Assembly: GCF_007753265.1 (NCBI RefSeq)
Contig: NZ_CP036349.1
Span: forward strand, 2,389,363-2,453,362
Reading direction: 5' to 3'
Length of the DNA: 64,000 bases
Source: Botrimarina mediterranea
GTDB lineage: Bacteria > Planctomycetota > Planctomycetia > Pirellulales > Lacipirellulaceae
Shown: piece after piece, positions 29,337 through 55,708 of the stretch
Layout of the letters: each line of letters begins with the position of its first letter
Position numbering within the stretch: position 1 is the first letter of the stretch
Notes under the pieces: generated by a model
What the model was told of the DNA's origin: nothing
Databases searched by the model: none
Seen by the model: the letters and a program-made list of their open reading frames with translations, nothing else
Made by a program: the position numbers and the translations under genes

Positions 29337-29358
29337 CATCGCCAAGTACCCCCACATT

Positions 29359-32173: not shown

Positions 32174-32216
32174 CTCATAACCTCGAGGTCGTCGGTTCGA
32201 ATCCGGCCCCCGCCAC
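32174..32216 (+). other. att-like repeat 1: 3' half of a tRNA-Met(CAT)-like gene
   Basis: The sequence CTCATAAC is the anticodon loop of a CAT tRNA; it continues through the variable region and a T-arm (GGTTCGAATCC) to the acceptor end CCCCCGCCA. The 5' half is absent: upstream bases do not pair. This is what is left when a tyrosine-recombinase element uses a tRNA gene as its target. The first 22 bp recur at 39487, 55158 and (two changes) 55687. An integrase gene begins 121 bp to the right. Confidence 0.8.
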
Positions 32217-32286
32217 TTTCTCTAAGTCCTGCTGAAACCGTACTTTAGGTTACCGGCCATAGGTTGGCCGAGCGGCTTGCTGGAGC

Positions 32287-32314
32287 CCAAGCGAGGTAAA
32301 ACTACCTCGCTTGG
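32287..32314. promoter_or_regulatory. Perfect 12-bp inverted repeat upstream of the integrase
   Basis: CCAAGCGAGGTA - AAAC - TACCTCGCTTGG, ending 22 bp before the GTG start. Could be an operator for int, an integrase arm site, or a hairpin in the mRNA leader. Confidence 0.65.
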
Positions 32315-32336
32315 TAACTCGTAGTGAGTTTCCGCC

Positions 32337-33575
32337 GTGCCCAACCTCGTTAACCGTCCGCCCAAGTACCGTTTTCACAAGAGCACCGGCCAGGCTGTCG
32401 TCTCGATTGACGGCAAAGCCATCCAGCTGGGGCCCTTCAACTCGTCGCGCAGTTTCGAGCGCTACGAGGAGCTTATCAAGGACTGGCGCCGTCGCCGAGA
32501 CGATCAGCGCCCCGACCTCGCCGAGCTCGACCCCTACTCGGTCGTCACCGTCAAGCAGCTCCGTGCACGGCTGCGCGAAGGTCATGCGGTTACGCTCAAC
32601 GAGCTGGCCCTGGTCTACGAGGAGCACGCCCACTCGTACTACCGAAAGAATGGCAAGATCACGCGGGAGGGTGAGCAGGTCAGCGAGATCCTGCGGTTTC
32701 TCCTGCGGCATTACGGCGACGAAGACGCCGCTGAGTTTGGGCCGGTAAAGCTCAAAGACTTCCGCGAGCTGATGATCGACCCGAAGGGGTGGTCTAGAAA
32801 GCACATCAACGAGAACGTCAACCGCATCCGCCGGTTGTTCGCCTGGGCCTGCGAGAACGAGTTGGTCTTGCCGGCCGTGCACCAGGCGTTGCAGGCGGTC
32901 GCCGGCCTCAAGAAGGGTCGGAGCAACGCCCGAGAGACGAAGCGCGTCACCGTAATCGATGACGCGACCGTCACCGCCACGCTACAGCACGCGCCGGAGA
33001 TCATCGCCGACATGGTGCGGTTTCAGCGGCTCACGGGAACGCGGCCGGGCGAAGTGTGCAACCTACGCCCCTGCGACATCGACCGCACGGGCGAAATTTG
33101 GGTCTACGAGCCGGACGAGCACAAGATGGAGCACTACGGCACTCAGAGGCTGGTGATGATCGGGCCGAAGAGCCAGGCGGTGCTGCGGCCCTACCTCGAA
33201 AGGGCGGACAAGACGTTTTGCTTCGTCCCGGCCGAAACGGCTTGGATGGCCAAGCGCCGGCGGGGCGCCGAGGGAGCGGCTGAGTCGTTCGAGACAATCC
33301 TCGCGCGGGCCCACTTCGTCGCCAGGAAGCGCGGCGCCACGAAGCCCTATGACGCGGGAAGCTATCGGCTGGCGGTGAATCGGGCCGCGCTAAAAGCCGG
33401 TGTCGAAAAGTGGTCGCCGAACCGGTTGCGGCATACGGCGGCGACCGAGGTGCGGAAGCAGTTCGGGCTCGAGGCGGCCCAGGTGGTTTGTGGGCATCAA
33501 AGCGCGGACATCACGCAAGTTTACGCGGAGCGCGATCTGGCACTGGCGATCAAGGTAGCTCAATCACTCGGGTAA
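32337..33575 (+). CDS. int: Tyrosine recombinase/integrase
   Basis: 412 aa, GTG start. N-terminal SAM-like arm domain, catalytic domain from about 200. Active-site residues: Arg236 (LTGTRPGEVCNL), a second box NRLRHT with Arg365 where the usual His before it is Asn362, His in VCGHQSADIT, and nucleophile Tyr396 (VYAERD). It cuts and joins att sites to insert or excise element 1, presumably at the tRNA-Met 3' half 120 bp to its left. The protein is of the planctomycete mobile-element integrase group by general feel; not tested. Confidence 0.93.
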   Translation: MPNLVNRPPKYRFHKSTGQAVVSIDGKAIQLGPFNSSRSFERYEELIKDWRRRRDDQRPDLAELDPYSVVTVKQLRARLREGHAVTLNELALVYEEHAHSYYRKNGKITREGEQVSEILRFLLRHYGDEDAAEFGPVKLKDFRELMIDPKGWSRKHINENVNRIRRLFAWACENELVLPAVHQALQAVAGLKKGRSNARETKRVTVIDDATVTATLQHAPEIIADMVRFQRLTGTRPGEVCNLRPCDIDRTGEIWVYEPDEHKMEHYGTQRLVMIGPKSQAVLRPYLERADKTFCFVPAETAWMAKRRRGAEGAAESFETILARAHFVARKRGATKPYDAGSYRLAVNRAALKAGVEKWSPNRLRHTAATEVRKQFGLEAAQVVCGHQSADITQVYAERDLALAIKVAQSLG

Positions 33576-33755
33576 GCTAATCCGGTCTTTGCTGCCAAGT
33601 CGCGCACAGACACTTTCGCAGCCAAGAGCTATTACAAAGATTGGCAGAGTCGAAAATGCGTAGGAGACCGCCGCGGTCCCCGAACCGTTCAGATCGATCG
33701 GAAGACTAGCCGCGGCGCAACACATCATTCTGCCGATCTGTTTGCCGGTACGGAA

Positions 33756-34382
33756 CTAATACCTGTCGGGCAGTTCGCCACGGCTATGACGATCAAAGTG
33801 CGATTCGGAAATGCCCTCTGGGCGAGCGTTGCTCTTACATCGCAATATATCCAGACGCGGTAAACTCGATGGATATCCTAGGTCCCATGTCAACGATTCA
33901 TGATCGTCATTCTCCTCCCAGCGGCAAATCTTGTTTATTACTTCTCGCCGGTACTTCTGGAGGCGAGCGTCGTTAAGGTTGAATGCATCTATCGCATACT
34001 CTCCCTCCTTAGTCAGAGCCGTAGCAACTCCGTTGTCTTCAATCCGCAGATGATTTCCCAATCCATCAACACAAGGGTCAAGCACTTGTGCAGTCAGTTT
34101 GGCGGAGTTGCAACGGTTGCAAGCGTACACAAGATTGTCATACGCACACACCAGCGTTAGCTCGACGCTCTTGGGAACGACATGATCGACGCCAAAACTA
34201 TCCGGACCGTTGGGATACCAACGCTCTCGCAGTAAGCAGTACACGCACCGAAAGGAAAACTCGTCTCTTAACCAGGGCTTGAAGGAAGGGTAATGGGTAT
34301 ATCCGATGGGACCGTGGCGCCGAATGTGGGCATCGGTCGGATATGCAAAGACGGATCGTCCTGTCTCACACGACATAGTCAT
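33756..34382 (-). CDS. HNH endonuclease
   Basis: 208 aa from the ATG at 34382, which overlaps the stop of the upstream papain-GNAT gene as ATGA (a start at 34400 would overlap by 22 nt). Zinc-finger HNH fold: C46-x2-C49 (FRCVYCLL), Asp66-His67 (GVDHVVPKS), then NLVYACNRCNSAK with the second CxxC and the catalytic Asn/His-type end. Such nucleases nick or cut DNA in restriction, toxin or homing roles. Translational coupling to the papain-GNAT protein implies one joint function. Confidence 0.85.
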   Translation of the reverse strand: MTMSCETGRSVFAYPTDAHIRRHGPIGYTHYPSFKPWLRDEFSFRCVYCLLRERWYPNGPDSFGVDHVVPKSVELTLVCAYDNLVYACNRCNSAKLTAQVLDPCVDGLGNHLRIEDNGVATALTKEGEYAIDAFNLNDARLQKYRREVINKICRWEENDDHESLTWDLGYPSSLPRLDILRCKSNARPEGISESHFDRHSRGELPDRY

Positions 34383-35650
34383 TGGCCCGGGAGGGGGCAT
34401 ATTTCGTGTTGATAACTTCCAAACTCACTCTGGAGTTGTAGAAATTCAGTCAACTCATCTGGAGTCAGGCCAGAGCGATACTTCTTATCCACAAGTATTG
34501 CACGCCGCCTGGACTTCTCTTCTGTCCAACCGTCATCCACAAGCTGTTCATGCTCCTGGGTAGCGGCGATCAGCTCTGCTAGGTGAGCGGCAGGCCTATC
34601 CGGAATCCAGGGAAGTTGAATGTCGTTAGCTTCTTGAGCGCTGCTTTCACCCTTGGCCTGCACATCGCTTTCTGCTTCAAGCACTAGCGGCGACGAAGTC
34701 TTGGCAGGAATCCAGCTCAGCGCAGGTAGTTCGCTCGATGCAACACCAGACAGGCCGACAAATGCAGCCCATCGCGTACCGGAAGGCGATAGCGTGATAT
34801 TCGAGCGGCGAGCCCAGTTCACCAAGGCAGCGGAATTATGTTCCGAGTGGTCGCCCCAGGGAATCCAAAAGCGAATGGGCAACCCCTCTGGGGCTCCGTC
34901 TCTAATTTCCTGCACTAATTGGGTGGCAAGCCCACGACGGCGATAATCGGGTCGCACGAATAACTCTTCAACGTCTATCGCTGTAGACGTTTGCAGGACG
35001 TGAGCCCACGCAACGAGTACATCGTTGTCACCGTCGCAGAACTCAAAAATCCAGGAAGTCCCTAGATGTGACCTCGCGCCGGGGAGGACGCGGAGGCTAA
35101 TGCCTGGCTCAAGAGCAAGCGGAGAAAAACCAGATAGGTCCGCGGTCCAGCCTTCAACCAGTCTACGGGCGAGGTAGTCGAAAGATAGTCTTCCCGATCC
35201 GTTATCTCCCCATTCCCCGCCCCAGGAGTTCACAAATACGAAAGAACTTGTGGCGAAGTCGATATCGAGCAACGGCAACGAATGCACGCCAGTCACGGGC
35301 AAGTCGTAATCGTCTGGGATGTTGCCCCGGGCTGGGTTTTGCCATGCGGACGTTATCTCCAACGCGACGCTACAGATCCGAGATTGTGAGACTGCGTAAA
35401 GGCATTCCCGCTCGCTGCGTAACCGTTGGTAGTGAAATAGGCGGAACCGCTTAGATACTTTATCAACGTTGGCCGGCTCGTGCTTCGCTGCCTCTGTGAC
35501 ATCGCCGTTATCAGGCCAGAATCGTTCAGGGAGCATCCCCCATCCCTTAGAAATTCTGAACCATGTGATAGGCCACGCACCGTCTATTAGGGCATCGCTC
35601 CCTTCCACCAGCGTGCGCCGCGCCACATAGTAGCTAATGCTATCAGCCAT
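34379..35650 (-). CDS. Papain-like (no Cys helix) + GNAT fusion protein, paralog 1
   Basis: 423 aa. Residues 5-170 resemble a C1 papain-fold peptidase from just after the catalytic Cys helix: YYVARRTLVEG, then GWGMLPERFWP, and the conserved end with His123 (GVHSLPLLDID) and Asn141 in NSWGGEWGDNGSG. No residue matches the nucleophile Cys because that N-terminal segment is missing. Residues about 195-300 are a GNAT acetyltransferase with the acetyl-CoA loop VRPDYRRRGLATQLV. Residues 300-423 form an extra tail absent in its paralog. Sits 46 bp after paralog 2 and is coupled to an HNH nuclease. Biological role unknown. Confidence 0.7.
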   Translation of the reverse strand: MADSISYYVARRTLVEGSDALIDGAWPITWFRISKGWGMLPERFWPDNGDVTEAAKHEPANVDKVSKRFRLFHYQRLRSERECLYAVSQSRICSVALEITSAWQNPARGNIPDDYDLPVTGVHSLPLLDIDFATSSFVFVNSWGGEWGDNGSGRLSFDYLARRLVEGWTADLSGFSPLALEPGISLRVLPGARSHLGTSWIFEFCDGDNDVLVAWAHVLQTSTAIDVEELFVRPDYRRRGLATQLVQEIRDGAPEGLPIRFWIPWGDHSEHNSAALVNWARRSNITLSPSGTRWAAFVGLSGVASSELPALSWIPAKTSSPLVLEAESDVQAKGESSAQEANDIQLPWIPDRPAAHLAELIAATQEHEQLVDDGWTEEKSRRRAILVDKKYRSGLTPDELTEFLQLQSEFGSYQHEICPLPGQ

Positions 35651-35696
35651 GGCTTTGCTATCTGGATTTCAAAGGTGAGTACGAAGTGCGTGTGGA

Positions 35697-36638
35697 TTAG
35701 AAGCCCTGGCCAGGGAGACCGACTACAGCCGCCCAACGCTTGTTCGATGCCTTTAGGGCTAGATGAAGCTTACAGGCAATAGCGCGAACACTACTCTCGT
35801 TTTCCAGCCAGTCAGAGAATGACACCCACATTCGCACCCGTCGCTTCTGATAGGCAGCTATTCCTAATATGTCTGCAACCATCGCTGTTGCCAATCCTTG
35901 CCGACGGAATGTCGGTTTGACGAAGAGCTCTTCGACGTCGAGATACGTGCCGCGAACGGTCAAAAACGCCCATCCCAGAGACTCATTTGCCTGCGGATCG
36001 AAATGCTCCATGCAAAATACTTTGTGGAAATCGGCCCGAGGTGAAGCGAGGATGTCTGCCTCATTCCAACGTAGGAGGGAGGGCTCAGATATCTGGTATC
36101 TTTCTTCGGGTCGTAGCGGCTGAGTAATCCAGGCATCAATCAAGTAGCGATCGAAGTATTCAAATGGCATGGTTCCAAAGCCCGCATTTCCCCATCCTGG
36201 ACCCCATGTGTTTTGAAAGACGAAACTCTCGTTGATCAAGTCGAAGCCAACTAGTCGTACGTGATGCGCAGCCGCAATCGATTCGTCGAGCGGAGGCATC
36301 TCTATACATCCCATCTCAGCCGTCGCCCACTGCCGAGTTATCTCAAGGCCCACCGGTACTTCCACTCTGTACGAGAGAGCGATTCTCGCGTCGAGTGAAG
36401 TCCGCACACGTTGGTAGTGGCCGATTCTTAGATGCTTGGCCTGCTCATCCAGATCTTTAGGTTCCGGACCAGGCCAAGCTTCCTTCGTAACGCTCCGCCA
36501 GGCGGTTTGCGGAACTGCTCCCCAACCCTTGGCAATGCGTCTGGCTGAGATTGGCCAAACGCCCTTCATGCAGTCGCCAGGAAAAGTTCCTTCCAACTGT
36601 CGTGACCGTACGTCCGAATACATGGAGCTTAGTAGCAT
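35697..36638 (-). CDS. Papain-like (no Cys helix) + GNAT fusion protein, paralog 2
   Basis: About 313 aa from the ATG at 36638 (M44 at 36623 is possible; the longer frame to 36752 overlaps the DUF1580 gene and adds no homologous sequence). Same layout as paralog 1: SSMYSDVRSRQLEG, GWGAVPQTAW, then His in AHHVRLVGFDL and Asn in QNTWGPGWGNAGFG, followed by a GNAT domain with VKPTFRRQGLATAMV. It lacks the C-terminal tail. Identity between the two is moderate by eye, so duplication is old. The missing nucleophile suggests a scaffold or substrate-recognition role rather than proteolysis. Confidence 0.68.
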   Translation of the reverse strand: MLLSSMYSDVRSRQLEGTFPGDCMKGVWPISARRIAKGWGAVPQTAWRSVTKEAWPGPEPKDLDEQAKHLRIGHYQRVRTSLDARIALSYRVEVPVGLEITRQWATAEMGCIEMPPLDESIAAAHHVRLVGFDLINESFVFQNTWGPGWGNAGFGTMPFEYFDRYLIDAWITQPLRPEERYQISEPSLLRWNEADILASPRADFHKVFCMEHFDPQANESLGWAFLTVRGTYLDVEELFVKPTFRRQGLATAMVADILGIAAYQKRRVRMWVSFSDWLENESSVRAIACKLHLALKASNKRWAAVVGLPGQGF

Positions 36639-36732
36639 GTGACGGGGAGAACGGTGAAGGGCGGACCAGCTGTGTTGCTGAGACCGAGCTATAGTACTGC
36701 GGGCATGAATAGGCGGCCACTCGAGTATGTTA

Positions 36733-37020
36733 TCACGGCATCGTGAGGCCACGGTTCGATAAGATGACGTCGATTTGAGCTTTGCGATGCGATTCTTGAA
36801 CGTTGGTGGTTGTAGTTCCTAGGAATCGCTGCAAGGCTTCGAGGCTAGTGTAGCGGATACCGCCGAGGAGGGCCGATTCCAGGACCTTGCCGCGGACCCC
36901 TTTGAGGACCCAGCGGTAGATCGTCGTGATATGGACTTTCTTGCCGCGGCGGGTGGGCAGGTAGTCGGGAACTTCCTGGAGAGAGACGAGCTGCTCGCCA
37001 TTGAGTGATTGTGGTTTCAT
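36733..37020 (-). CDS. DUF1580-like helix-turn-helix protein
   Basis: 95 aa from the ATG at 37020; the longer frame upstream is a shadow of the rep gene. MerR/excisionase-like wing-HTH: VSLQEVPDYLPTRRGKKVHI and TTIYRWVLKGVRGKVLESAL, LGGIRYTSLEALQRFL. Matches the small DUF1580 proteins seen in planctomycete mobile DNA. Most likely a directionality factor (Xis) or repressor of element 1. 67 bp after rep on the same strand; the start has no strong Shine-Dalgarno. Confidence 0.8.
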   Translation of the reverse strand: MKPQSLNGEQLVSLQEVPDYLPTRRGKKVHITTIYRWVLKGVRGKVLESALLGGIRYTSLEALQRFLGTTTTNVQESHRKAQIDVILSNRGLTMP

Positions 37021-37087
37021 GTGGATTTGGACGAGTGAGAGGGGGTAGATTTGGTTGAGGTGGATAGCGTCTCGTGCGCGGAGTTCG

Positions 37088-38446
37088 TCATCCTTCGAAG
37101 TCCATGCGGCGCTTGTGGGCGTGGTACATGAACTCTTGACGGCCTTCTGGCGATAGGAAGAGCGAGAAGAGAAGATCGCCTGCCTTCGTGGCGAATTGGG
37201 AGTAGCTGCTGAACTCAACTCCCATTTGCAGCAGGCAGCCCAAGAGGCAGCCGCGGGCTTGGGCGGCAAGCTGAATGGGCTCGACCTTAGTCCGGTCGAG
37301 CGGGGGCAACGGTGCTTCTGGCGGTCCGAAGATCGCCGCAAAGGCTTTTTGAATGGATTGCCAAAGCGGGTGGACCGTCGCTCGACTTTGGTGCTTGTTT
37401 TCCGAATCGACGGGCTCCGCGGTTAGACGGAACCATTCGTCGGTGAGGTAACCGGTCAGCCTCCCCCGCTGGTTGAGGAAGTCGCTAGGCGAGTCGATAT
37501 TCAGGTCTCGGAGCTTATTTCGTCCGAGCTGGTATTCGATACGGGCCGCCGTCGTCGGAAACCTGCCGCCCCAACGTCGTTGTTCGAGGGCTTGCAGGTA
37601 GAGCGCGTCGGCCTTACCAAACTGCTCGCGGACCTTGTCGTAGACGGTAAGGTAGAGCGGAGACTTTCCAGCCGAGAATCCCGACCGCTCCCCGTTGAGA
37701 AGATTCTCGTGGGGTCTAACCGTAGTTGCGCGCGTAATGACGCAGTGGCGTTCGACCAGAGCAAGCAGTTCTTGAACTGGTAGGTCGGGGATGTCGAGGC
37801 AGAGGTCAACGCGGCTCAAGCATTCTTTGAGCCGGCGCCCGCCAATGGCGGAGAGGAATGCTTGCGCTCGCTCGTAGCCCTCATAGACGCCTACGAGGAG
37901 GCAGTGTCGGCCGGTCTGCTGGTAGGCAACGTTGGGTTGTCGCTTCCAGATCGCATGTTCGGCTTGCTGAGGGGTGACATTACGCGTCGCCACACCCAAC
38001 ATGGCGCCGCCGATGTCGATCTTGTACTCGTAGTGCTGGCCGCGATCGCCGCCGCGATTGAACCCGTGCCGGTGGACTCGCACTGGTCCGTAGCCGGGGA
38101 CGATTACCTCGACGAAGGGGATGCGCTTTTCTTGGCAGCGTTTCTTCGCCGCTTGAAAGAGCGCAATTGCCGCTTCGAAAGTCTTGGTGTCTTCCCAATT
38201 GTAGTAGGCGAACCACTCGAACCAATCGATGCCGCCGGAGACGCGCAGTGTCTGGCAGCCCTCTGTCTCAATCTCGATAAGGCTACTTGGATCCCGGGTG
38301 TTACTAAGGCACCCGGGATCCGCAGTCGGCTGCGGTGCGGCGCCTTCGGAACGGCGGCGCTCCTCGCCGCCTGCGGCGTCGTTCTGCTCTTCGTTGCTAT
38401 CGTGGTCGTTGTCTTCGCGCTCGTTGGGCGCATGGCTAGAATCCAT
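37088..38446 (-). CDS. rep: Rep_trans-type rolling-circle replication initiation protein
   Basis: 452 aa from the ATG at 38446, with AGGAG 8 nt ahead. N-terminal 55 residues are charged and disordered; the rest fits the Rep_trans/NicK-like family: GGIDWFEWFAYYNW, a HUH-unrelated core with CLSRVDLCLDIPD, VYDKVREQFGKA and ARIEYQLGRNKLRDL. Such proteins nick one strand at a double-strand origin, often inside or next to their own gene, and start rolling-circle replication of plasmids or excised integrative elements. Two prominent inverted repeats nearby (38289-38321 and 38580-38653) are candidate origins. Confidence 0.8.
   Translation of the reverse strand: MDSSHAPNEREDNDHDSNEEQNDAAGGEERRRSEGAAPQPTADPGCLSNTRDPSSLIEIETEGCQTLRVSGGIDWFEWFAYYNWEDTKTFEAAIALFQAAKKRCQEKRIPFVEVIVPGYGPVRVHRHGFNRGGDRGQHYEYKIDIGGAMLGVATRNVTPQQAEHAIWKRQPNVAYQQTGRHCLLVGVYEGYERAQAFLSAIGGRRLKECLSRVDLCLDIPDLPVQELLALVERHCVITRATTVRPHENLLNGERSGFSAGKSPLYLTVYDKVREQFGKADALYLQALEQRRWGGRFPTTAARIEYQLGRNKLRDLNIDSPSDFLNQRGRLTGYLTDEWFRLTAEPVDSENKHQSRATVHPLWQSIQKAFAAIFGPPEAPLPPLDRTKVEPIQLAAQARGCLLGCLLQMGVEFSSYSQFATKAGDLLFSLFLSPEGRQEFMYHAHKRRMDFEG
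38289..38321. repeat. Perfect 12-bp inverted repeat inside the rep 5' coding region
   Basis: GGATCCCGGGTG - 9 nt - CACCCGGGATCC. Encodes part of the disordered N-terminus of Rep. In pT181-type plasmids the nick site is a hairpin within the rep gene, so this is a candidate origin. Confidence 0.7.
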
Positions 38447-38579
38447 TCTGCGTACTCCTGGGGCCCCGGGCGCCTGCCTCGTCGCCAAACAAGTGACAGG
38501 CGTTCGGTGGCCTCTTCTTGTTGAAGGGCTAGTTACTGAAGGAAAAAGACCTCTGCTCGGGCTCGACAAAAGGGGGGTC

Positions 38580-38653
38580 GCCCCATCCGTCTTCACCGCC
38601 GCGTCGGCCTCAGCTGACGTGAAGGCCGACGCGACGGTGAAGACGGAAGGGGC
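38580..38653. repeat. 31-bp-arm inverted repeat upstream of rep (candidate origin)
   Basis: Arms 38580-38610 and 38623-38653 pair with two mismatches around a 12-nt loop (CAGCTGACGTGA). It lies between the RHH gene stop and the rep start, about 135 bp ahead of rep. There is no U-tract on the - strand, so a terminator is less likely than a cruciform replication or nicking site. Confidence 0.75.
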
Positions 38654-38701
38654 TCAGCGGGACCGGTAGGTTACGACGGCCGTAGCACTGGGCGGATTGG
38701 G

Positions 38702-39181
38702 TTACTTTTTGGGCGGCATCTCGGCCGACTCGTAGGCTTTGGGCTTTCTGCCGAACAAGCTCAGGAACATCTGGCCGAATTTGGTGCTTAGCAGTGACAT
38801 GGCCCATGCCTCGTCGGCGAGCGCGAAGTCGATGAGCAGCGCCGCCATGCGAACCGGTGTGTGATTGAGATCGTCCGCCGTGCTATCGAGGCGGGATTTG
38901 AGGCTAGCAGGGATGGGCACCTGCAACCGCACTTCTTCTCCGCCCCCGCGTTGCAGCCAGCCGCGTTTGATTCCTTTGACTCGCTTTCTGCTGACTCTCA
39001 ACGCTAGCCATCGCCCGATATTGTCGAGATCGTCCAGGGCGAAGCTAAGTAGCGTTTTCGCCAGCTCAGCCTGCGTCAGATGGAGAGCGGTCGCCCATCG
39101 CTGCAATTCGTCCGCTAGCTCGCGCGTGACGGGGATTTGCAGCTTGATGCTGTCGTCGAGTTCGGATTCGCGCTTAGCCAT
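38702..39181 (-). CDS. Tandem ribbon-helix-helix-like protein
   Basis: 159 aa. Two similar strand-helix-helix units: IKLQIPVTRELADELQRWA ... LLSFALDD (about 12-51) and VRLQVPIPASLKSRLDSTA ... LLIDFALADE (about 83-124). This looks like an RHH dimer made from one chain. Probably the copy-control or partition repressor of element 1; it is first in the leftward gene run and next to the origin-like hairpin. Similar in plan to the 97-aa protein at 28041. Confidence 0.65.
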   Translation of the reverse strand: MAKRESELDDSIKLQIPVTRELADELQRWATALHLTQAELAKTLLSFALDDLDNIGRWLALRVSRKRVKGIKRGWLQRGGGEEVRLQVPIPASLKSRLDSTADDLNHTPVRMAALLIDFALADEAWAMSLLSTKFGQMFLSLFGRKPKAYESAEMPPKK

Positions 39182-39486
39182 GGTATGCCTCTGATTCGCG
39201 GTGAGTGCATACGGAATCTAAGGAATCGGAAAAGATTCTGCAAGGACAAAAAAGAATGGCGACCTTTTTGGTGATCGCCGCTAGCGAGAGCCAGGCTTGT
39301 CATCGCGAGCCATCAATTCCGACAGAGCGAATGCGTGCGGGGCTTTGCCTCGGGAGCATTCGCAGACGTGCTTTGACTTGCGTTGAGTCACGATTCGAAA
39401 CGCACATTTGCACTGCTCAACGCGAGGTAATACACTCCCAAAATCATAGCTCCAGCAAAGCAGTTGAGACTTAGGGCCGGCAGCCT
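39182..39486. other. Intergenic stretch at the right end of element 1
   Basis: 305 bp without a supported gene; the + frame here has no ribosome binding site and no domain. It must carry the promoter for the RHH-rep-DUF1580 run. Confidence 0.5.
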
Positions 39487-39508
39487 CTCATAACCTCGAG
39501 GTCGTCGG
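39487..39508 (+). repeat. att-like repeat 2
   Basis: Identical over 22 bp to 32174-32195 (core CATAACCTCGAGGTCGTCGG). Downstream bases diverge at once, so the tRNA 3' half is not regenerated here. A - strand DNA methylase gene is truncated exactly at this repeat. Confidence 0.85.
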
Positions 39509-39739
39509 CGGTGGATGACCTTTTCCTTCTGCAGGGCGGCGTCGACTTCCTCGGGCGTGACGATCGTTGACAAGCGACGAGAACAGCACCGCCCGACATG
39601 CGGCGAGTGGCCGGCGAGCCCACCAGAGGTGCAAGGTGGAAGGGTGACCGTGGCGGATCGACTTTTCACGAGCCGACTCGGCATTAATGGCCACCAGTGG
39701 CAGCGCCACCTCGATCAGTTTCTTGCGGTAAGTGCTCAT
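39488..39739 (-). pseudogene. DUF1156 DNA methylase, N-terminal fragment cut at att-like repeat 2
   Basis: From the ATG at 39739 the frame reads [18 protein letters not shown] and then [20 protein letters not shown] and [18 protein letters not shown], which is the DUF1156 start of adenine-specific DNA methylases (normally 800-1,000 aa). After about 60 residues homology ends and the frame stops inside the 22-bp repeat (residues PPTTSRL). So the methylase of the helicase cassette has lost its catalytic part. It follows the 159-aa small gene by 22 bp. Confidence 0.8.
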
Positions 39740-39761
39740 GTCGCGGTCGGCTCTGCTAAAT

Positions 39762-40241: not shown

Positions 40242-40248
40242 GGTGCGA

Positions 40249-44547: not shown

Positions 44548-44581
44548 TGAATAGACAGCTGATTAGGTTCGATAGGCAGGC

Positions 44582-47500: not shown

Positions 47501-48088
47501 AAACCAGTTTCCACTGTAGGCAGATTCGAACTTGTCGTTCGTCATAATGTCGAACGGCAACTGAAACTTCTCGCTCAACTCATCCTGCCACTGCTCAACG
47601 AGGTTTCCAGGCGCTACGATCATGCACCGCTTCAGGTCGCCTCTAACAATTAGCTCCTTGATCAGGAGCCCGGCCATAATGGTCTTGCCAGCACCCGGAT
47701 CGTCAGCAAGTAGGAACCGAAGAGGCTGCCTAGTCAGCATTTCCTCATAGACGGCGGTAATCTGGTGAGGCAATGGCTCGACCATTGACGTGTGCACAGC
47801 AAGAACCGGGTCAAAGAGGTACGCCAGTTGTATTCGCAAAGCCTCCGAGGTTAGCCGTAGCAATTCGCCATCGCCGGTAAAACTCCAAGGACGACCAGTC
47901 TCTACTAGTTCAAGTGTTGGCTCGCGATCTCGATAGAGAATCTCTTGATCCGTGGCTCCCTCCGGCGTCTCGTAGACTATCTTGAGTGCCCCGCTCCCAA
48001 ACGGTTGTGCATCGATGATTTTCACCGTCACATTCGGGAGTATGCCTCGGACCGCCGAGTTCTTGGTGATATCTTCCAGTCGTGTCAC
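44582..48088 (-). CDS. SNF2/DEAD-type helicase with C-terminal DUF3883
   Basis: 1,168 aa. Superfamily-2 motor: Walker A ADDPGAGKT (129-136), motif II DEAH (230-233), motif III SATPHNG, and C-terminal lobe motifs around LATDAAGEGINLQ and NRLEQRFGRIHRIGQ. Long coiled-coil linker, then DUF3883 (about 1075-1150: KCGYDVES, FLEVKGR, ITRNE), a PD-(D/E)xK-related fold often fused to defence helicases. Upstream gene of the operon with the GHKL ATPase, small protein and truncated methylase. Resembles the helicase-methylase logic of DISARM-like systems; the exact system name is not certain. Confidence 0.9.
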   Translation of the reverse strand: MTRLEDITKNSAVRGILPNVTVKIIDAQPFGSGALKIVYETPEGATDQEILYRDREPTLELVETGRPWSFTGDGELLRLTSEALRIQLAYLFDPVLAVHTSMVEPLPHQITAVYEEMLTRQPLRFLLADDPGAGKTIMAGLLIKELIVRGDLKRCMIVAPGNLVEQWQDELSEKFQLPFDIMTNDKFESAYSGNWFTENDLVVCRLDKLSRSEAVQDKLQVTDWDLIVVDEAHKMSASLFGNEVKETQRHKLGRRLSTLTRHFLLMSATPHNGKEEDFQLFMRLLDADRFEGAFRPGVHTCDATDMMRRMVKEDLLRFDETRLFPERRAYTVNYELSREEAHLYSAVSDYVRQEFDRAKALQNEGRQGTVGFALTILQRRLASSPEAIYQSLRRRRERLEGRRSEIQLMKRGASERLNFNDALPSLSEPDDIEDFEDRPGDEFEAAEESILDQATAAQTIAELELEIESLRQLETLAQQVRSSGKDRKWEELSSLLQDNEHMFDEHGNRRKLVIFTEHRDTLNYLHSRITTLLGYPESVVTISGGMLREQRKDAQDRFTHDKETLVLLATDAAGEGINLQQAHLMVNYDLPWNPNRLEQRFGRIHRIGQTNVCHLWNLVAGETREGDVFRRLLEKLEVERDALGGAVFDVLGQAIEGRQLRELLQEAIFYGSQPEVRARLKERVEGALDHSRLQALIESQSLERETMDTSRVRQIRDEMERANARRLQPHFIAAFFHEAFAHLGGKLRERESKRYEISHVPAEIRNRDRQIGTRNTLQKKYERITFEKNLVNLEGQRQAAFVCPGHPLLDSTIDLILEKYRDLLKQGAVLVDETDAGEAARALFYLEHSIHDARPNPRGGRHVVSRQLQFVSIDSGGSVSAAGYAPYLDYRAATEEETKQLQPLLDEEWLKQDLEERAVAHAISELVPRHVQEVRGRKEELIEKTISAVTERLTKEYMHWDNRAQQLKAQEEAGRTPKLNSRKAEQRADELQGRLQKRLEELEQEKQLSPKAPFAIGGALVVPIGLLRRLQGNPVAEPAHAKETKRIEMLAMKAVMDAERQLGHDPRDVSEAKCGYDVESTDGQTKLLRFLEVKGRVAGADTVTITRNEIVTGINTASSYILAVVQVDGDVVHPPVYVRKPFEREPDFDVTSVNYNLRDLLAKGQPPT

Positions 48089-48128
48089 GATCAGCCCTCT
48101 TCTGTGTTGATCCCTTAGGTCATCTGAA

Positions 48129-48347
48129 CTAGCGAGGCCTTCTGGTCCGAGGTTGACGCTGTGTCGGATGGTCTACCTCGTGGAGAAGCCGATCGAGATC
48201 TTTTTTGGCGTATAGGCGGTAGCCGTTAATGGGATGACGCCTTTCCATAAGCTTTCCACATCTTCCCCAATTGCGGAGAGTGTTCGGAGCAACGCCGACA
48301 TACTCAGCCGCTTCGCTTATGCGGAGATACTCGTCGAGTTTGGTCAT
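48129..48347 (-). CDS. MerR/excisionase-type HTH protein
   Basis: 72 aa from the ATG at 48347 (longer frame to 48410 adds non-homologous residues). DEYLRISEAAEYVGVAPNTL and RNWGRCGKLMERRHPINGYR, YAKKDLDRLL are a textbook winged HTH of excisionases and MerR-like regulators. Lies 40 bp before the helicase gene on the same strand, so it is likely the regulator of the defence cassette, or a leftover Xis. Confidence 0.8.
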   Translation of the reverse strand: MTKLDEYLRISEAAEYVGVAPNTLRNWGRCGKLMERRHPINGYRLYAKKDLDRLLHEVDHPTQRQPRTRRPR

Positions 48348-48463
48348 GGCCGGATTGCCTGGGTGGTTTACGGCAAAATGCAGGTTCTCAACCTTACCAA
48401 ATCCTGCCACGCTTGAGAATCAGGCGGGCATCGGTGTCAGCCTGGTGTCCCCCAGCCTCACGA

Positions 48464-49390
48464 TTACTTCAGAGCGGGCTCATCAAAGGTTGCGCCCAAG
48501 ATATGATCCGCCGCCCGCTGACCCTGCCCGGCGGCCTGGACGACCAGCTTCTTGTCATCCTTGAGCTTCTTCTGCCAACCGTCGATGTAAGCGGCTGACT
48601 GCTCGATTGTCGGTGGGCTGATGCCGGCGGATGCGCACAGGAACGCCGAGCCCATCTCGGCCACTAGCTCTTCTTTCGAATAGTCGGGCGACCCAAACGG
48701 AGCCGGCGCCTCGTCGAAGCCTCGGTTAAGTCGCGACTTGTGCCCGGTTGAGTGCGACAGTTCGTGAAACAGGGTGGCGTAGTAGGATTCCCGGGTTTCA
48801 AACCGCTCCGGTGCAGCGATTCGCACGGTGTCGGTCTTCGGGAGGTACATGGCAGCCGAGCCGGTGTGCATCACGAGCGGTCCGCCCGGGTAACTCGTGA
48901 CGATGCGGTCGGCTTCTTCGATCGGTTTGAAGGGCTCTGCGTCGCCTCCATCAGCGTTTTGGTCCGGTGCCTCGACACCCTCGCACTGCTCGGCGTTGAA
49001 GACGTTGTAGTGTCGCAGGACCGGGATGGTGATCTCCTCGCCACTCTCTTTGTCCTTGGTGGCTGCCTGCTTCCAGAACACGACGAGGGTCGACTTCTCA
49101 CCCTTCTTCACCTTGCCTTGCTGCTTGGTGACTTGGTTGAACGTCGCCCAATAGTCCGACTCGTAGCCGTGAGCCCAGCTCGTCATTGCTAACAAGAAAA
49201 CGTTGATGCCCCGGTAGTTCTTGCCGGTGGAGAGGCTCTTGGGCATCCCGTCGCCGTTCGCGGATCGCTTAATCGGTTGCCTCCAAGGCGCCACCCCAGT
49301 TTCCAGCAGCTCCAAAATGCGGTTGGTCACCTCTTGGTAGATGTCTCGACGAGGCTTGTGCCCGTTCTGTTTCCTATCGCCCCGCTGCAC
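48464..49390 (-). CDS. ArdC-type antirestriction protein (ssDNA-binding + zincin)
   Basis: 308 aa. N-terminal DUF1738 ssDNA-binding domain (RRDIYQEVTNRILELLETG, APWRQP, NYRGINVFLL) followed by a zincin domain with His209-Glu210-x2-His213 (FHELSHSTGH) and Glu245 (EELVAEMGSAFL). ArdC proteins protect incoming DNA from restriction during transfer. Typical length. Its presence marks this stretch as plasmid/ICE-derived. Located 116 bp before the HTH gene on the same strand. Confidence 0.92.
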   Translation of the reverse strand: MQRGDRKQNGHKPRRDIYQEVTNRILELLETGVAPWRQPIKRSANGDGMPKSLSTGKNYRGINVFLLAMTSWAHGYESDYWATFNQVTKQQGKVKKGEKSTLVVFWKQAATKDKESGEEITIPVLRHYNVFNAEQCEGVEAPDQNADGGDAEPFKPIEEADRIVTSYPGGPLVMHTGSAAMYLPKTDTVRIAAPERFETRESYYATLFHELSHSTGHKSRLNRGFDEAPAPFGSPDYSKEELVAEMGSAFLCASAGISPPTIEQSAAYIDGWQKKLKDDKKLVVQAAGQGQRAADHILGATFDEPALK

Positions 49391-49764
49391 GCCGGCCTAC
49401 CCGAAGGTGGGCGTGATCGTTTGATTGTCGATAATTGGTGGCACGACTACGCTCCTTGCTACTCAGTTGTTTCTCCCTCTTGGTTGCCATGGATTCGGCA
49501 CGCAAGTCAAGCGGTTTCTCTTGCCGTTCGTTCTTGCGGGTGTGCTTGCGGGAAGCCTGAGCCCCTCGGCTCTTCTCCTCTACCGGTGTGTGTGAACAGA
49601 CGCCGGACGATAAGCGAGCGTCGCGAACGGGCGTCAAGGGACGCCTGCAGACGCACGGGGGCATCTTCGGCGTGCCGTTGGCAAACCCTGGACGCCGCCG
49701 CTCGGGCCGCTCGCTTGTTTCGCAGGCATCGTTCAAACAACCCCTCAGAAAGGAGGAACCTACG
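49391..49764. other. Intergenic stretch, no supported gene
   Basis: About 374 bp between divergent genes. A - strand 120-aa frame and a + strand frame here are basic, low-complexity and lack ribosome binding sites. Carries promoters of ardC-like and DUF6876-like genes. Confidence 0.5.
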
Positions 49765-50181
49765 ATGTCTCAACACAAACCCTCAGCAACGACCCTGCAG
49801 TACGAACTCGGCCAGTTCACCGGCGACCTGGAGCGCTACCGGCACCCGATCAACCGGCGGGTGATCTACACTCCCGGCGTCAAGCACCTCGCCGAGCGGG
49901 CCGGAGCCTATTGGCTGATCGACTCGATCGCCAGTTGGATTGGGAGCCACCCATTCAACGTCGCAGTTCGAGAGGACGAGCGGGTACAGTCTCTGCACTT
50001 CTGGAAACTCTCGGTCGACCTGGACGAGAGGTCCGCCCTCTTGGCGGCGGTAGCCGACTCGGGGGAGCCGCCCTTCATCACACAGCGCATCCCGTTCACG
50101 GACTTTCCGCTAGCGAGCGTTGACGTGTGGGCCGGCTTCGATGGCCAGCACTGGACGCTGTACCTGCCGAGCGAGCACTGA
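49765..50181 (+). CDS. DUF6876-like plasmid-type small protein
   Basis: 138 aa from the ATG at 49765 with a near-perfect AAAGGAGG nine nt ahead; the longer upstream frame is not coding-like. Sequence LGQFTGDLERYRHPINRRVI, AYWLIDSIASW and WTLYLPSEH match the small DUF6876 proteins found on plasmids and genomic islands. Biochemical function unknown. Frequently near ArdC-like genes, as here. Confidence 0.8.
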   Translation: MSQHKPSATTLQYELGQFTGDLERYRHPINRRVIYTPGVKHLAERAGAYWLIDSIASWIGSHPFNVAVREDERVQSLHFWKLSVDLDERSALLAAVADSGEPPFITQRIPFTDFPLASVDVWAGFDGQHWTLYLPSEH

Positions 50182-50191
50182 CCGGCGGAGC

Positions 50192-50217
50192 GGCCGGGCC
50201 CCTCGCGGGCTCGGTCG
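50192..50217 (+). terminator. Possible terminator after DUF6876 gene
   Basis: GGCCGGGCCC - CTCGC - GGGCTCGGTC, a stem with two G-U/mismatch positions, followed by GTTTCTT. Eleven bp past the stop codon. Confidence 0.45.
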
Positions 50218-50346
50218 TTTCTTCAGTCCTGAGTAGGACTCATACCAAGACACTATAGCAGCGTTACCCAGCTTGCAGTCAGTTCTGAAAAAGCCCCCTC
50301 AGGCACCGCCGCGGTAGTCGGTGGCGTTAGAGACGCGCATTCAGGA

Positions 50347-51387
50347 TTACTCTTGTACCCTAGCTGGCTGAACGATGATCAACTGCGTGGCGTCTATGCC
50401 ATCGGCTACAAACAACTCGGGGATGCTGTCCTCTGGTATGTCTTCCAACATCAAGGCGGCCTTGCCTTGCTCAAAGGCAGTATGAACAGATTTGCCAAAC
50501 CCGACAGCAGAATAGAACTGTGAAGCAAACACCCTCGCGGCGTCATCGCCAATCGAGTCGTTCATCCCAATTGCTGCTTCTAAGTGGTCGACGACGGCCT
50601 CCGCTTGCCCGCGTGAATAGCATGTATTGAAGAACACCAGCCGGATCTTCCCCGAGGATGCTTTCATCATTTGGACGATTGCGGCCAACGAAACGATCTT
50701 TGCGTTTCCTTGCTCATCTTGAAAGACAATCTCATCTTGATCCGAGCCATGGCCGCTAAAATGAACAATGGTCGGCTCTACCTCGTTGATTGCCTGCAGG
50801 GCGTCGAGCGGACGAACCGCCCATCGTGATTCCAGCCGGACCGAGTCTCGGTGCTGCGACTTGCGGATCATCTCATGAATAGAACGCGCCTCTTCATCGA
50901 GTCGCAGTTCATCTTCGTCCAATGGATTGGCGGCAAGGAACAGAACCGCAATAACTTCTGGCAGTCGCTTCAATGCTTCAATGTCTTCCAAGGCGCAGCT
51001 TAGAGTGGAGTCGATCTGGTTGATTTTTCGTTTCGTACTGTCTGCGGAGCGTTGCATAGCACGCTCGCGGGTTGACGCCTCCCTTGCTTGCTCTTTCGCG
51101 AGTGCCTTCTCTGCGTCGCTGAGCTTCTTCGACTCTTGGGCGCTCTTGCTTTCGATCTTTCCGATGTCGCTCTCCACTTTGGCGAGGTCCTTTGCCGCAC
51201 GCTCTGCTTCCCGCATTCTCGATTTCAGCGTCGACGGGGTCGACGCCTTAGCCGCGCGTTCGTTCGCGCTGTTCATTTTGGTCGTCAACGACGCCCGTTT
51301 GGTTGCGAGCCGACACTTGTCTTTGTTGAGTTGCGCAATACGAGAACGAGACTGCTCTGCTTTGCGGCGATAGTGGTCGGATGACAC
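50347..51387 (-). CDS. Coiled-coil CHAT (caspase-like) protease
   Basis: 346 aa. Residues 1-140 are a highly charged coiled coil (KAEQSRSRIAQLNKDKCRL; AEKALAKEQAREASTRERAM). Residues about 145-335 are a CHAT peptidase: catalytic His213 in VHFSGHGSD and Cys256 in VFFNTCYSRGQAEAV, plus AVGFGKSVHTAFEQGKAAL near the end. CHAT/caspase-like proteases act as cell-death effectors in several bacterial defence systems and are activated by partner sensors. No partner with an obvious sensor domain is adjacent, so this may be self-contained, with the coiled coil as switch. Confidence 0.88.
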   Translation of the reverse strand: MSSDHYRRKAEQSRSRIAQLNKDKCRLATKRASLTTKMNSANERAAKASTPSTLKSRMREAERAAKDLAKVESDIGKIESKSAQESKKLSDAEKALAKEQAREASTRERAMQRSADSTKRKINQIDSTLSCALEDIEALKRLPEVIAVLFLAANPLDEDELRLDEEARSIHEMIRKSQHRDSVRLESRWAVRPLDALQAINEVEPTIVHFSGHGSDQDEIVFQDEQGNAKIVSLAAIVQMMKASSGKIRLVFFNTCYSRGQAEAVVDHLEAAIGMNDSIGDDAARVFASQFYSAVGFGKSVHTAFEQGKAALMLEDIPEDSIPELFVADGIDATQLIIVQPARVQE

Positions 51388-52079: not shown

Positions 52080-52085
52080 ATGACC

Positions 52086-52358: not shown

Positions 52359-52379
52359 CCCACCTCGCCGACACACCGA

Positions 52380-52410
52380 GAGCCGCCTGGCGACAGGCGG
52401 CTCTTTTTCT
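52380..52410 (+). terminator. Rho-independent terminator
   Basis: Perfect 10-bp stem GAGCCGCCTG - GCGA - CAGGCGGCTC followed by TTTTTCT. 22 bp past the stop of the 90-aa gene. Confidence 0.92.
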
Positions 52411-52488
52411 GCGCAAGTATGGTCCCGCCGGCGGGAGAAGCCCGCTAGTAAAACCTCGCCGCCAACCAGAGTGCCCCTACACAGCAAA

Positions 52489-53583: not shown

Positions 53584-53639
53584 TCCGTTCTCTGCTAGCA
53601 GCGGCCTTCCTCATGACCCACTGACCAAGACATGCCTGT

Positions 53640-55054
53640 GCAGGTTCGCCTCATTTTGACGGATTGTATCCGATCTTTATGAGCGGGTTGAGCCTACTGG
53701 GTGCGTCGCTCGGGCGCAGCACAGGTCGTGATATTCGGCGGTGCTGCCTGCGGCGCAAGAACATAGCGGTTCCAAACGAAGGAGCACGCCACGCACAGAC
53801 GGCATTCACCGTGGAGGCGTTTGAGCAGCTCCTTTGGGGTGACGCTAAGCCGCTGCTCGCTCGTAGTGCTTGAGTACGCCGCCTAGCCGTTCGCGACACA
53901 CCACCTGTTCCGCATTCTCCGGCGGGTCGTCTTTATCTGGCCAGATGCCCTGGAGCGGCTTGTTGTCTTTGCGTTGGTGAGGGCGCACCTCGTTGTAGAA
54001 GTCTGCATACTCCTTTATCAGGAAATCGAGGTGCCCAAGACCGAACGCGATGAAGCGGTCCAGGCACTCCCGCTTGATCGAGCCGATCCACCGTTCCACG
54101 AAGGCGTTCTGGTTGGGCGCGCGTGGGGCGGTAGGTTCGACCGCTACATCCGCTTGTTCAAAGACTTCATCGAACTTCTGACTGAATTTGTAGTCCTTGT
54201 CGCGGACGAGGTAGCGGACCGGCAGGCCGGCCTGCTCCGCTTCTTCGAGGAAGGACTGGGCCTGCTCGACCACCCACTGCTCGTCGGGCTGGAAGGTGGC
54301 CGGGGAGCACACCACCCGCCGTGAGTCGATGTGTAGGAACGCCAGCGCAAACGACTGCCGCAAGCCGGTTTTGGTGACCACCATCTTGGAGAAGAAGTCG
54401 ACCTGCCAGAGCGTGTCGGCGTGGACCTTCACGAACTCGGCCCAGGTGCCGCCTCCCCGATCCGGGCTGGGCTGCAGGCCCTCTTCCTTGAGTATCTTCC
54501 GCACCGTCGAGCGGCCCGCGCACTGGACGCCGAGCTTCTTCAGTTCGCCGACGATCCGGCCGTACCCCCAGCCGGTTTCTTTAGCCAAGCGGAGGACGAT
54601 CGCTCGGATCGATTCGGGCGTTCCCTTGCGGCCCATCTTCTTCGCCGGCTGCTGGCCCTGGCTTACTCGCCGTTGCCACCTCTGGTAGGTTCGGGGGCTG
54701 ACAATAGTAATGAGCTGCAGCACTGCTTTTCCTATGGCCTCCCCCAGCTTCAACAGCCGTTCTCGCTCTTCGTTGTCGAGGAAGATGCGGTCCTTGAGGA
54801 CGCGCTTGCGGAGCATCTCGTTCTCCGCTTTGAGGAACTCCACCTGGCGACGCAGTTGGTCTTCGCTAGAGCCGGCGAGGAGGAACAATAGTGGAGAGAA
54901 CCAGCTCGACATCGGCGCCCCAACTCGGCGAAGAACAGACGAAGAATTAGGGGTGACAACCTTTGCGAACCCCTGGTGTTCTACTCATTCTCACCTTCTC
55001 GGTGAGCGCCGCAAGCGACTACGGGTTTTCGATGCAAGAGATGCGAAAACCTGC
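53640..55054. mobile_element. Insertion sequence, tentative ends
   Basis: Imperfect terminal inverted repeats GCAGGTT...CGC at 53640 and its complement ending at 55054 would give a 1.4-kb element around the transposase gene. No target duplication was found. The ends are a weak call; the transposase is clear. Confidence 0.35.
53845..54912 (-). CDS. DDE integrase-core (rve) IS transposase
   Basis: 355 aa. N-terminal coiled coil and HTH (LRRQVEFLKAENEMLRKRVL; ETGWGYGRIVGELKKLG) then rve catalytic core: Asp in LWQVDFFSKMV, Asp in YLVRDKDYKF, Glu in NAFVERWIGSIKREC, ending VRPHQRKDNKPL. IS3/IS481-like single-ORF transposase. Copy is intact. Sits inside island segment 2 near repeat 3. Confidence 0.9.
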   Translation of the reverse strand: MSSWFSPLLFLLAGSSEDQLRRQVEFLKAENEMLRKRVLKDRIFLDNEERERLLKLGEAIGKAVLQLITIVSPRTYQRWQRRVSQGQQPAKKMGRKGTPESIRAIVLRLAKETGWGYGRIVGELKKLGVQCAGRSTVRKILKEEGLQPSPDRGGGTWAEFVKVHADTLWQVDFFSKMVVTKTGLRQSFALAFLHIDSRRVVCSPATFQPDEQWVVEQAQSFLEEAEQAGLPVRYLVRDKDYKFSQKFDEVFEQADVAVEPTAPRAPNQNAFVERWIGSIKRECLDRFIAFGLGHLDFLIKEYADFYNEVRPHQRKDNKPLQGIWPDKDDPPENAEQVVCRERLGGVLKHYERAAA

Positions 55055-55157
55055 TAACGGATGACAATCGTTGCCATCCGTTGCATGCGAATTGGCTCCG
55101 TAGTAAGCTTCATTTTTCGCTATGAATCGAGGGGTATCAGCGCGCGCGGGCCAGTTT

Positions 55158-55179
55158 CTCATAACCTCGAGGTCGTCGG
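55158..55179 (+). repeat. att-like repeat 3
   Basis: Identical over 22 bp to repeats 1 and 2. Flanks diverge on both sides. The reading frame of a DNA methylase fragment starts directly after it. Confidence 0.85.
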
Positions 55180-55478
55180 GTCGGCGACATCGACTTCGTC
55201 TGGATGCACCCGCCCTACTGGCGGCAGATCGTCTACAACGACGACCCGCGGTGTCTTTCGACAGCGTTAACGCTCGACGCGTTCTTCGGCAGGCTACGGC
55301 TGGTGCTACGCAACTGCCAGAGCGTGCTGACGCGTCGCGGAAAGATCGCGGTCTTGATCGGCGGCTACAGCGAACGCGGCGTCTTCCAGCCGCTCCCCCA
55401 CCTGACGGGGTTTACCGATCGTCGTTCATCCCAGGGCTGCACGATCAATGCCTCGTGTTCGAGCCGGGTCGTCTGTGA
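55180..55478 (+). pseudogene. DNA methylase fragment, cut at att-like repeat 3
   Basis: In frame from the repeat: GDIDFVWMHPPYWRQIVY carries a (D/H)PPY-type amino-MTase motif IV, then RLRLVLRNCQSVLTRRGKIA and VLIGGYSERGVFQPLPHL. The protein start is missing at the att repeat. Around 55408 a deletion plus frameshift occurs: the expected ending (VYRSSFIPGLHDQCLVFE) continues in another frame to 55478. A different methylase family from the DUF1156 fragment at repeat 2. Not functional. Confidence 0.75.
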
Positions 55479-55490
55479 CCGGCGCTACTA

Positions 55491-55686
55491 ACTCTGCCAC
55501 GCCTCGCTGTGCCTCAGCGGGGCGTTTCTACTGCGCGTCGCTACGCGGTTCAACTCCATTGGCTACCATCGACGGGCAAAGCGCCAGAACACCAGTCCGC
55601 TAAATGAGAGCCACGCGAAGGCATCCCGCTACAGAAGGTCGGCAGGACATCGGTATGCGGCTATTCATCGCACTGTTAAGCGCTGT
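55491..55686. other. Decayed DNA between repeats 3 and 4
   Basis: No gene supported. Confidence 0.4.
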
Positions 55687-55708
55687 CCCATAACCTTGAG
55701 GTCGTCGG
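55687..55708 (+). repeat. att-like repeat 4 (two mismatches)
   Basis: CCCATAACCTTGAGGTCGTC then GG; differs from repeats 1-3 at two positions. Probably the outermost, oldest or chromosomal-side core. Confidence 0.7.

Follow-up and report, generated by a model that had tools for sequence, protein, structure and literature searches.

The genome of Botrimarina mediterranea carries a tandem array of mobile islands at one tRNA gene, a tRNA-Met(CAT) that looks like the single initiator tRNA of the genome. Most of the displaced tRNA pieces in this array end in the T-stem. We interpret the repeats, with a probability of about 0.6, as attachment cores of a tandem series of islands that carry tyrosine integrases and have entered this tRNA gene; their damaged attR ends would be the work of a DDE transposase acting as the deleting agent, and the damage would act as a lock on the islands.

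Four of the sites lie in the window, the whole stretch of 64,000 nucleotides that was analysed. The core 20-mer CATAACCTCGAGGTCGTCGG occurs exactly at window positions 32176, 39489 and 55160 and with one mismatch at 55689. The 22-mer that starts two bases earlier is found at 32174, 39487 and 55158, and with two changes at 55687, in agreement with the original prediction; the four direct repeats are real. None of 100 shuffles contained four core matches (mean 0.00). Core 1 (32174..32215, + strand) is a displaced piece with a complete 3' end, covers tRNA positions 32-73 (anticodon loop, T-arm and acceptor strand) and forms the left edge of element B. As predicted, it alone among the window copies continues through the T-arm and acceptor stem. 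Core 2 (39487..39508, +), the right edge of element B, and core 3 (55158..55179, +) are truncated pieces comprising positions 32-53, and core 4 (55687..55708, +) is a truncated piece with two changes. Cores 2-4 are not ordinary displaced 3' halves, as they are cut at a fixed T-stem base, which had not been foreseen.

A genome search for the intact tRNA-Met and for further cores, as the original prediction had suggested, located the intact gene at 2222151-2222225 of contig C1 of this genome (G000), outside the window and 199 kb left of core 1, and two additional displaced pieces outside the window, at 2311218 and 2470772. The genome total is seven sites, the intact tRNA and six displaced pieces, all on the + strand and clustered within 249 kb of the 5.87-Mb genome rather than scattered across it. 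Other core-like places were limited to three at 3 mismatches, and a reversed-pattern control gave one. The tRNA is one of three CAT tRNAs among 46 distinct tRNAs and has an initiator-type acceptor stem. The pieces share one orientation and lie on the correct side of the intact tRNA, as in the Islander definition of a tandem array, and relatives also carry arrays at the same tRNA. The intact tRNA, the six same-orientation pieces, three related integrases and the arrays of relatives together support the predicted serial integration at one tRNA site; it had not been foreseen that the intact gene and most of the array would be found beyond the window, or that the tRNA is apparently the initiator. 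Gene order left of the tRNA is conserved in three related genomes (G001-G003), and to its right no conserved chromosomal block was found up to 2.58 Mb. Every displaced piece has its left edge at the first anticodon-loop base, and this edge marks the strand-exchange side. Islands at tRNA-Val (one displaced piece) and tRNA-Ala (two pieces) of the same genome share this left edge.

Element B encodes integrase B, a tyrosine recombinase of 412 aa (32337..33575, + strand; PF00589, 58.7 bits), with paralogues beside the intact tRNA (integrase A, 55% identity) and beside the core at 2470772 (58%). The three related tyrosine integrases, 55-58% identical, adjoin three of the seven sites, so the single integrase at the left that had been described holds for the window only. 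Elements A and B have the integrase at the left end, and the third one comes after the final site; the segments beginning at 2311218, 2428849, 2444520 and 2445049 have no integrase of this family at their left end. The array shares with Islander tandem tRNA islands an intact tRNA, same-orientation pieces, tyrosine integrases and an anticodon-type crossover. It differs in that four of its seven sites lack the integrase that each Islander island has beside its own tRNA piece, and in its size, as the part of the Islander work drawn on here counts four tandems of three or more. We rejected carriage by a phage or virus: no relative of integrase B was found in IMG/VR, and of the five stretches there with exact cores, four are tRNA genes and one is partial. 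Integron-like cassettes were also rejected. As in integrons, cargo units stand in a row between same-orientation recombination sites, yet the sites are tRNA-derived and the integrase matches the Xer/integron model weakly (46.4 bits, cut-off 220).

The window contains varied cargo. Immediately left of core 1 lies an IetA/IetS-like pair (28341..31845), an IetA-like ATPase (28341-29336, +; PADLOC IetA, 223.6 bits; Pfam AAA) and an IetS-like subtilase (29359-31845, +; PADLOC IetS, 118.7 bits; Pfam Peptidase_S8). The body of element B (33756..39181, all on the − strand) encodes an HNH endonuclease (33756-34400), two GNAT-like proteins (34379-35650 and 35697-36752), a 502-aa protein tentatively named from a weak endonuclease match (37088-38596) and a 159-aa protein (38702-39181); other names from weak matches are likewise tentative. 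Further right on the − strand are two defence cargo genes, encoding a TmtA/Sacsin-like protein of 1432 aa (40249-44547; PADLOC TmtA, 171.4 bits) and an HmaA helicase (44582-48088; PADLOC HmaA, 1710.9 bits over 1-1165), followed by genes for an ArdC-type anti-restriction protein (48464-49390; PF08401, PF18818) and a CHAT-domain protein (50347-51387; PF12770). In the original prediction, cores 2 and 3 each mark the exact point at which a methylase gene is cut. This is correct for core 3, where a DNA methylase 3' fragment (55180..55491, +) starts exactly at the core; its frame, VGDIDFVWMHPPYW..., begins at 55180 and aligns to an internal part of a methylase frame that is longer in a relative. At core 2 the cut is not exact. 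A ~57-bp sliver (39509..39565, −) abuts the core and aligns to a long frame in G001, both of which we take to be relaxase-like, and the DUF1156 methylase homology stops ~50 bp rightward (N-terminal fragment 39559..39706, −; PF06634, 88.6 bits).

The truncation has a fixed start. In this genome only core 1 is a 3' terminal piece, the kind that Islander requires, and the other five displaced pieces end in the T-stem. In 18 genomes, 61 displaced sites were read. At 44 of them the tRNA sequence stops 0-3 bases past CGTCG (position 52), at 15 it runs to the end and at two almost to the end, with no intermediate cases; truncated pieces recur in at least 13 planctomycete genomes. The DNA past the stop is unrelated to the tRNA, and in three cases is the 5' end of an integrase gene itself. 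Two before/after pairs indicate what was lost. The left end of an intact island in G001 and its counterpart in G002 are 95% alike over 400 bp, with a stretch of 242 bp gone from position 52 up to integrase codon 33/34, and comparison of a left end in G009 with the site at 2470772 reveals 134 bp gone. The deletions therefore vary in length from a common start after position 52, in the T-stem and not in the acceptor stem. Decay of displaced ends by drift in plain tandem islands, with selection keeping the integrase-binding part alone, is very improbable. A single integrase half-site would match the retained part (overlap plus ~14 bp), but drift predicts scattered edges, whereas no cut falls between positions 56 and 63 at any of the 61 sites, the two near-complete ones are point-worn, and well-preserved gene sequence is joined abruptly past the stop. 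We also rejected, as the main reading, a right-edge crossover by the integrase at secondary sites, because by eye the native sequence before nine junctions lacks the shared core end; the left edge at the anticodon loop of three tRNAs also disfavours it. By eye there is one exception: in G009, the native site corresponding to 2470772 is core-like over ~15 bases.

A candidate for the deleting agent is encoded beside many of these ends. In the window, a DDE transposase homologue of 355 aa (53845..54912, −; rve_3, IS481/IS3-like; PF13683, 49.5 bits) reads away from core 3 and is separated from it by a 245-bp arm region (P arm; 54913..55157, +) that has a 15-mer in common with the sequence before the tRNA-adjacent integrase of G002. 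Such a gene lies upstream of 28 of 42 truncated but 5 of 17 complete pieces (Fisher p 0.019, a nominally significant link; one of the five rests on a 37% fragment) and upstream of none of seven distinct intact-tRNA sites. The match is 151-316 bp from the core at 25 of the 28 truncated sites and more than 700 bp away at three, including window core 4, where it is the same gene as at core 3.

It is also possible, though we consider it unlikely, that the deletions are made during integration by the integrase or an associated factor, as in PICIs, and that the transposase is a frequent passenger at the right end. Comparable attR damage in PICIs is described in the part of that report concerned with it (PMC10111431), and 14 of the 42 truncated sites have no transposase in the upstream stretch read. 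Moreover, common sequences of at least 13 bases between pre-integrase regions and the arm regions close to the transposase are more frequent within genomes (7/109 pairs) than between them (28/1391; p 0.011), which suggests that these ends belong to the integrase. This excess is gone at 14-mers (2/109 versus 19/1391, p 0.46). The transposase link itself argues against the integrase as deleter, as do the tRNA-Val and tRNA-Ala pieces, which involve the same integrase family and have complete 3' ends in 3/3 cases, and a tRNA-Met island in IMG/VR whose one displaced piece is complete.

The transposase unit resembles IS481/IS3 insertion sequences in its rve_3 DDE domain, with catalytic D172, D238/240 and E273 conserved in 26-27 of 27 homologues, and in its size of ~1.5 kb: both ends are visible in 14 copies, 13 of which measure 1.50-1.58 kb, while the second end of the window copy was not recognisable. 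Unlike in those elements, the NCBIfam score is below the cut-off (window copy against IS481, 102.8 bits versus 224), one end is identical to a tRNA piece, and a target duplication accompanies one of the 14 copies, two of which precede tRNA 3' sequence and would not be expected to show one. In anchored alignment the inverted similarity of the unit ends did not reach significance (1514 and 4235 of 20000 shuffles equally good). The duplicated copy (2309681-2311239 of this genome) is flanked by the 5-bp direct repeat TTTGG, and its arm region has a 15-mer in common with the sequence before integrase A, 89 kb away. Copies inside one genome are ~67-85% alike in DNA, arguing against a recent burst. 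Among more distant homologues, those in G014 and G118 adjoin tRNA-Asn, in a group whose ends are not identical to tRNA, and those in G025 and G029 have a common 27-bp end suggestive of tRNA-Leu(CAA).

The fixed ends and the TTTGG copy with the 15-mer in its arm region would also fit a ~1.5-kb transposon with a right end made up of the tRNA core plus the integrase arm region. Its jumps would plant new attR sites, and the integrase would mobilise the span from tRNA to transposon, so that attR could move and the borders of islands would be redrawn. Copies outside arrays occur in either orientation, as expected of such an element. In a count by hand in five genomes, 24/24 copies inside arrays are oriented like the tRNA versus 3/9 outside (p 8e-5), a contrast that we also count in favour of the interpretation preferred here. 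We regard the transposon as unlikely, given the single duplication, the ends that are not significantly inverted, and the location of the copies found, which are all within the array in G000 and G003 and in 5/7 cases in G002, unlike free jumping.

Under our preferred reading, in which the transposase is the deleter, the truncated pieces are 'damaged attR' sites, perhaps made by this enzyme. Insertion sequences are known to generate deletions into neighbouring DNA. After integration, the displaced T-loop, the 3' strand of the T-stem, the acceptor strand and a variable stretch beyond would be deleted from the fixed point by the DDE transposase encoded 150-320 bp inward from many of these junctions. 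This enzyme would treat the tRNA core as its own end and delete into the adjoining DNA; the arm that separates its gene from the core would be that of the integrase. Excision of an island through a truncated junction would probably disrupt the tRNA, as integrase excision via the damaged site would leave the chromosomal tRNA without its 3' half. Since only one initiator tRNA was found, cells excising in this way should die, and the islands with their defence cargo would be kept. The damaged pieces retain the overlap and right arm, so they may be usable as landing sites, allowing the array to grow away from the tRNA. More tentatively, the segment from anticodon loop to T-stem may be both the attachment core of the integrase and the working end of the DDE unit, with the transposase trimming the displaced end or relocating the core, locking islands and redrawing borders around new cargo.

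In PICI satellites the displaced tRNA piece in attR is likewise deleted from a fixed point over a variable length, and the passages on this damage suggest a role in addiction and name no such transposase gene (PMC10111431). In PICIs the starting point is in the acceptor stem, whereas here it is where the 5' strand of the T-stem ends, in planctomycete anticodon-loop islands at an initiator tRNA and with a link to a DDE transposase gene. Tycheposons, as described in the section consulted, share cargo islands of tens of kb, a tRNA-Met gene border and a tyrosine recombinase, and are set apart by a description that mentions neither truncated tRNA pieces nor a DDE gene (PMC10872708). Our literature search did not find the combination of features seen here. 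Islander lists 148 of 3919 islands 'with damage' in the part of its account used here (PMC4383910). Most pieces in the present array are internal tRNA fragments, a class that its filter rejects, and arrays of this kind may therefore be under-counted. The damage described here, with one base-exact start, an apparently sole initiator tRNA and a candidate enzyme, bears on how islands without a toxin-antitoxin pair persist and on what causes damage to displaced tRNA pieces.

The core positions of the original prediction (32174, 39487, 55158 and 55687 of the window) were borne out by a sequence search of the window, and the genome-wide search it proposed for an intact tRNA-Met and further cores located the intact gene at 2222151-2222225 and two extra displaced cores. 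On the single 5,871,207-bp contig (C1; window, 2389363-2453362) there are seven core copies, all on the + strand: in the intact tRNA (2222183), at 2311218, at window cores 1 to 4 (2421536, 2428849, 2444520 and 2445049) and at 2470772, the last of the array, with successive spacings of 89,035, 110,318, 7,313, 15,671, 529 and 25,723 bp. One integrase family has three members in the array: A lies 3' of the intact tRNA, B 3' of core 1 and C 3' of the last core. A and C share 55% and 58% identity with B, and the whole genome has 25 Phage_integrase matches. Among 59 relatives' genomes, 46 contain the core at ≤2 mismatches and 44 the integrase at E 1e-40. The array is ordinary in kind, a tRNA island array.

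In all displaced pieces, tRNA likeness begins at CTCATAA, the 7-base anticodon loop. One displaced piece of tRNA-Val and two of tRNA-Ala in this genome likewise begin at the respective anticodon loop and retain the whole 3' end, and Islander classes 2083 of 3919 islands as anticodon-type (PMC4383910); the crossover type is thus ordinary. Another tandem array, at tRNA-Ala(TGC) (C1:3081149-3160862), contains two family integrases, and its displaced ends are complete.

The right edge is distinctive. We read 68 distinct sites, a subset of the core places located. Seven are intact-tRNA sites (identical ones collapsed); the other 61 are displaced and come from 18 genomes. Only 0-3 bases, the chance level, are kept past CGTCG in 44 of the 61 (13 genomes), while 15 keep the entire tRNA end and two most of it, worn; none of the 61 is cut at any other position. 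The site scan used the first 21 bases (≤3 mismatches) and would miss pieces cut before position 52, of which a looser scan of 300 kb of the source genome gave no convincing example. The cut is followed by G or C at 39 of the 44 truncated sites, compared with a flanking G+C content of 57% (p 1e-5). Such T-stem damage, exact to the base, is new.

The right flanks of truncated cores show no kinship to one another. Native counterparts of nine were located elsewhere, and the core was present at none of these. At three sites (source genome 2470772; relatives G003 2071964 and G002 987075) the flank is an integrase gene cut near its start, with codon 33/34 adjoining the core at G002 987075. Counted from position 52 against relatives' complete left ends, 134 bp are missing at 2470772 and 242 bp at G002 987075. 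From these comparisons, we infer that the truncated junctions are deletions with one fixed end.

The 7.3-kb element B of the window (32174-39508) encodes an integrase of its own and, on its left, retains a tRNA 3' end in full; beside that end lies defence-type cargo, an IetA/IetS-like pair (28341-31845). Segment 39509-55179 is without an integrase and carries defence genes of Hma and TmtA-like type as well as ArdC; the cargo between cores 2 and 3 (40249-51387) includes HmaA, a TmtA-like 1432-aa protein, ArdC and a CHAT protein. Its right end consists, in order, of a transposase, an arm and core 3, and a 0.5-kb methylase remnant occupies the segment from core 3 to core 4.

The transposase is a DDE homologue (ORF 53845-54912). 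Of the 42 truncated sites with sufficient sequence, 28 have a match 5' of the core, reading away from it (at 151-316 bp in 25 of the 28), compared with 5 of 17 complete sites (one match being a 37% fragment) and 0 of 7 intact-tRNA sites; the Fisher p of 0.019 for truncated versus complete sites is optimistic, because the arrays are closely related. Another fixed end, CGTC(C/G)..TTCAA.AAGGTTGTC, is present in 14 copies, giving units of 1.50-1.58 kb in 13 and 1.09 kb in one; that at 2309681-2311239 of the source genome is the single case with TTTGG at both flanks, and no further fixed end was seen at the window's copy. At a threshold of E 1e-80, 29 of the 147 genomes searched in the order and family encode the protein. 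By hand count with anchors checked, array copies all point one way (24/24) and 3 of 9 far from the tRNA are like-oriented, a pattern consistent with the transposase spreading the copies and the integrase stacking them. The transposase partner of this array is new.

Related arrangements occur in other genomes. In G020 (C1:2599001-2601500), a pair of truncated cores, separated by 0.85 kb, points outward in opposite directions, with differing arm regions and degenerate transposase pieces in between. Transposase homologues (61%) in G025 and G029 share a 27-bp end that resembles the anticodon-to-variable-arm stretch of tRNA-Leu(CAA) and gives way to different DNA, and in G014 and G118 a homologue lies right behind an intact tRNA-Asn gene without a family integrase between. 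The G003 array holds another transposase type (C1:1986423-1987421 and 2087914-2088912; 38-40% related, opposite orientation).

The repeat-bearing arm region between transposase and core varies among copies with similar transposases. Arm and pre-integrase regions share words of ≥13 bases in 7 of 109 same-genome pairs versus 28 of 1391 others (p 0.011), and of ≥14 bases in 2 of 109 versus 19 of 1391 (p 0.46). The best arm match in the source genome, 15 bases between the integrase A region and core 2311218, makes the tRNA to 2311218 the likeliest extent of a putative element A; the core 3 arm matches an integrase type present in G002 and absent from the source genome. Palindromic GGTA..TACC-like repeats ahead of each integrase start (for example, 32290-32320 of the window) are lineage-specific, are echoed close to other cores and are perhaps arm-type binding sites.

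Rfam gives 47 tRNA matches in the genome, and ARAGORN, run on the loaded sequence, recognised 46 distinct tRNAs and left one match unrecognised; three have a CAT anticodon, all labelled tRNA-Met. Bacterial initiator tRNAs are marked by a 5' CGCGGGGTGGAGCAGCC start and by the lack of a base pair at 1-72. As the island target alone among the three carries both, it is most probably the sole initiator gene. Such a target is new.

Excision, cleavage and killing are proposed here from sequence. Published work on PICIs suggests an addiction effect for a damaged attR, a right attachment site whose displaced tRNA 3' end was deleted, with deletions that begin in the acceptor stem (PMC10111431), whereas the damage here is in the T-stem. 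Within the damaged-attR reading, the transposase, our preferred cutting agent, and an integrase-linked process, as in PICIs, stand at about even odds. A circle of segment 39509-55179 would be without the tRNA 3' end, and harmless entry would therefore be limited to damaged or downstream cores. By analogy, PICI-style addiction logic fits the array, and more strongly so than in PICIs, given that the sole initiator tRNA is apparently the target.
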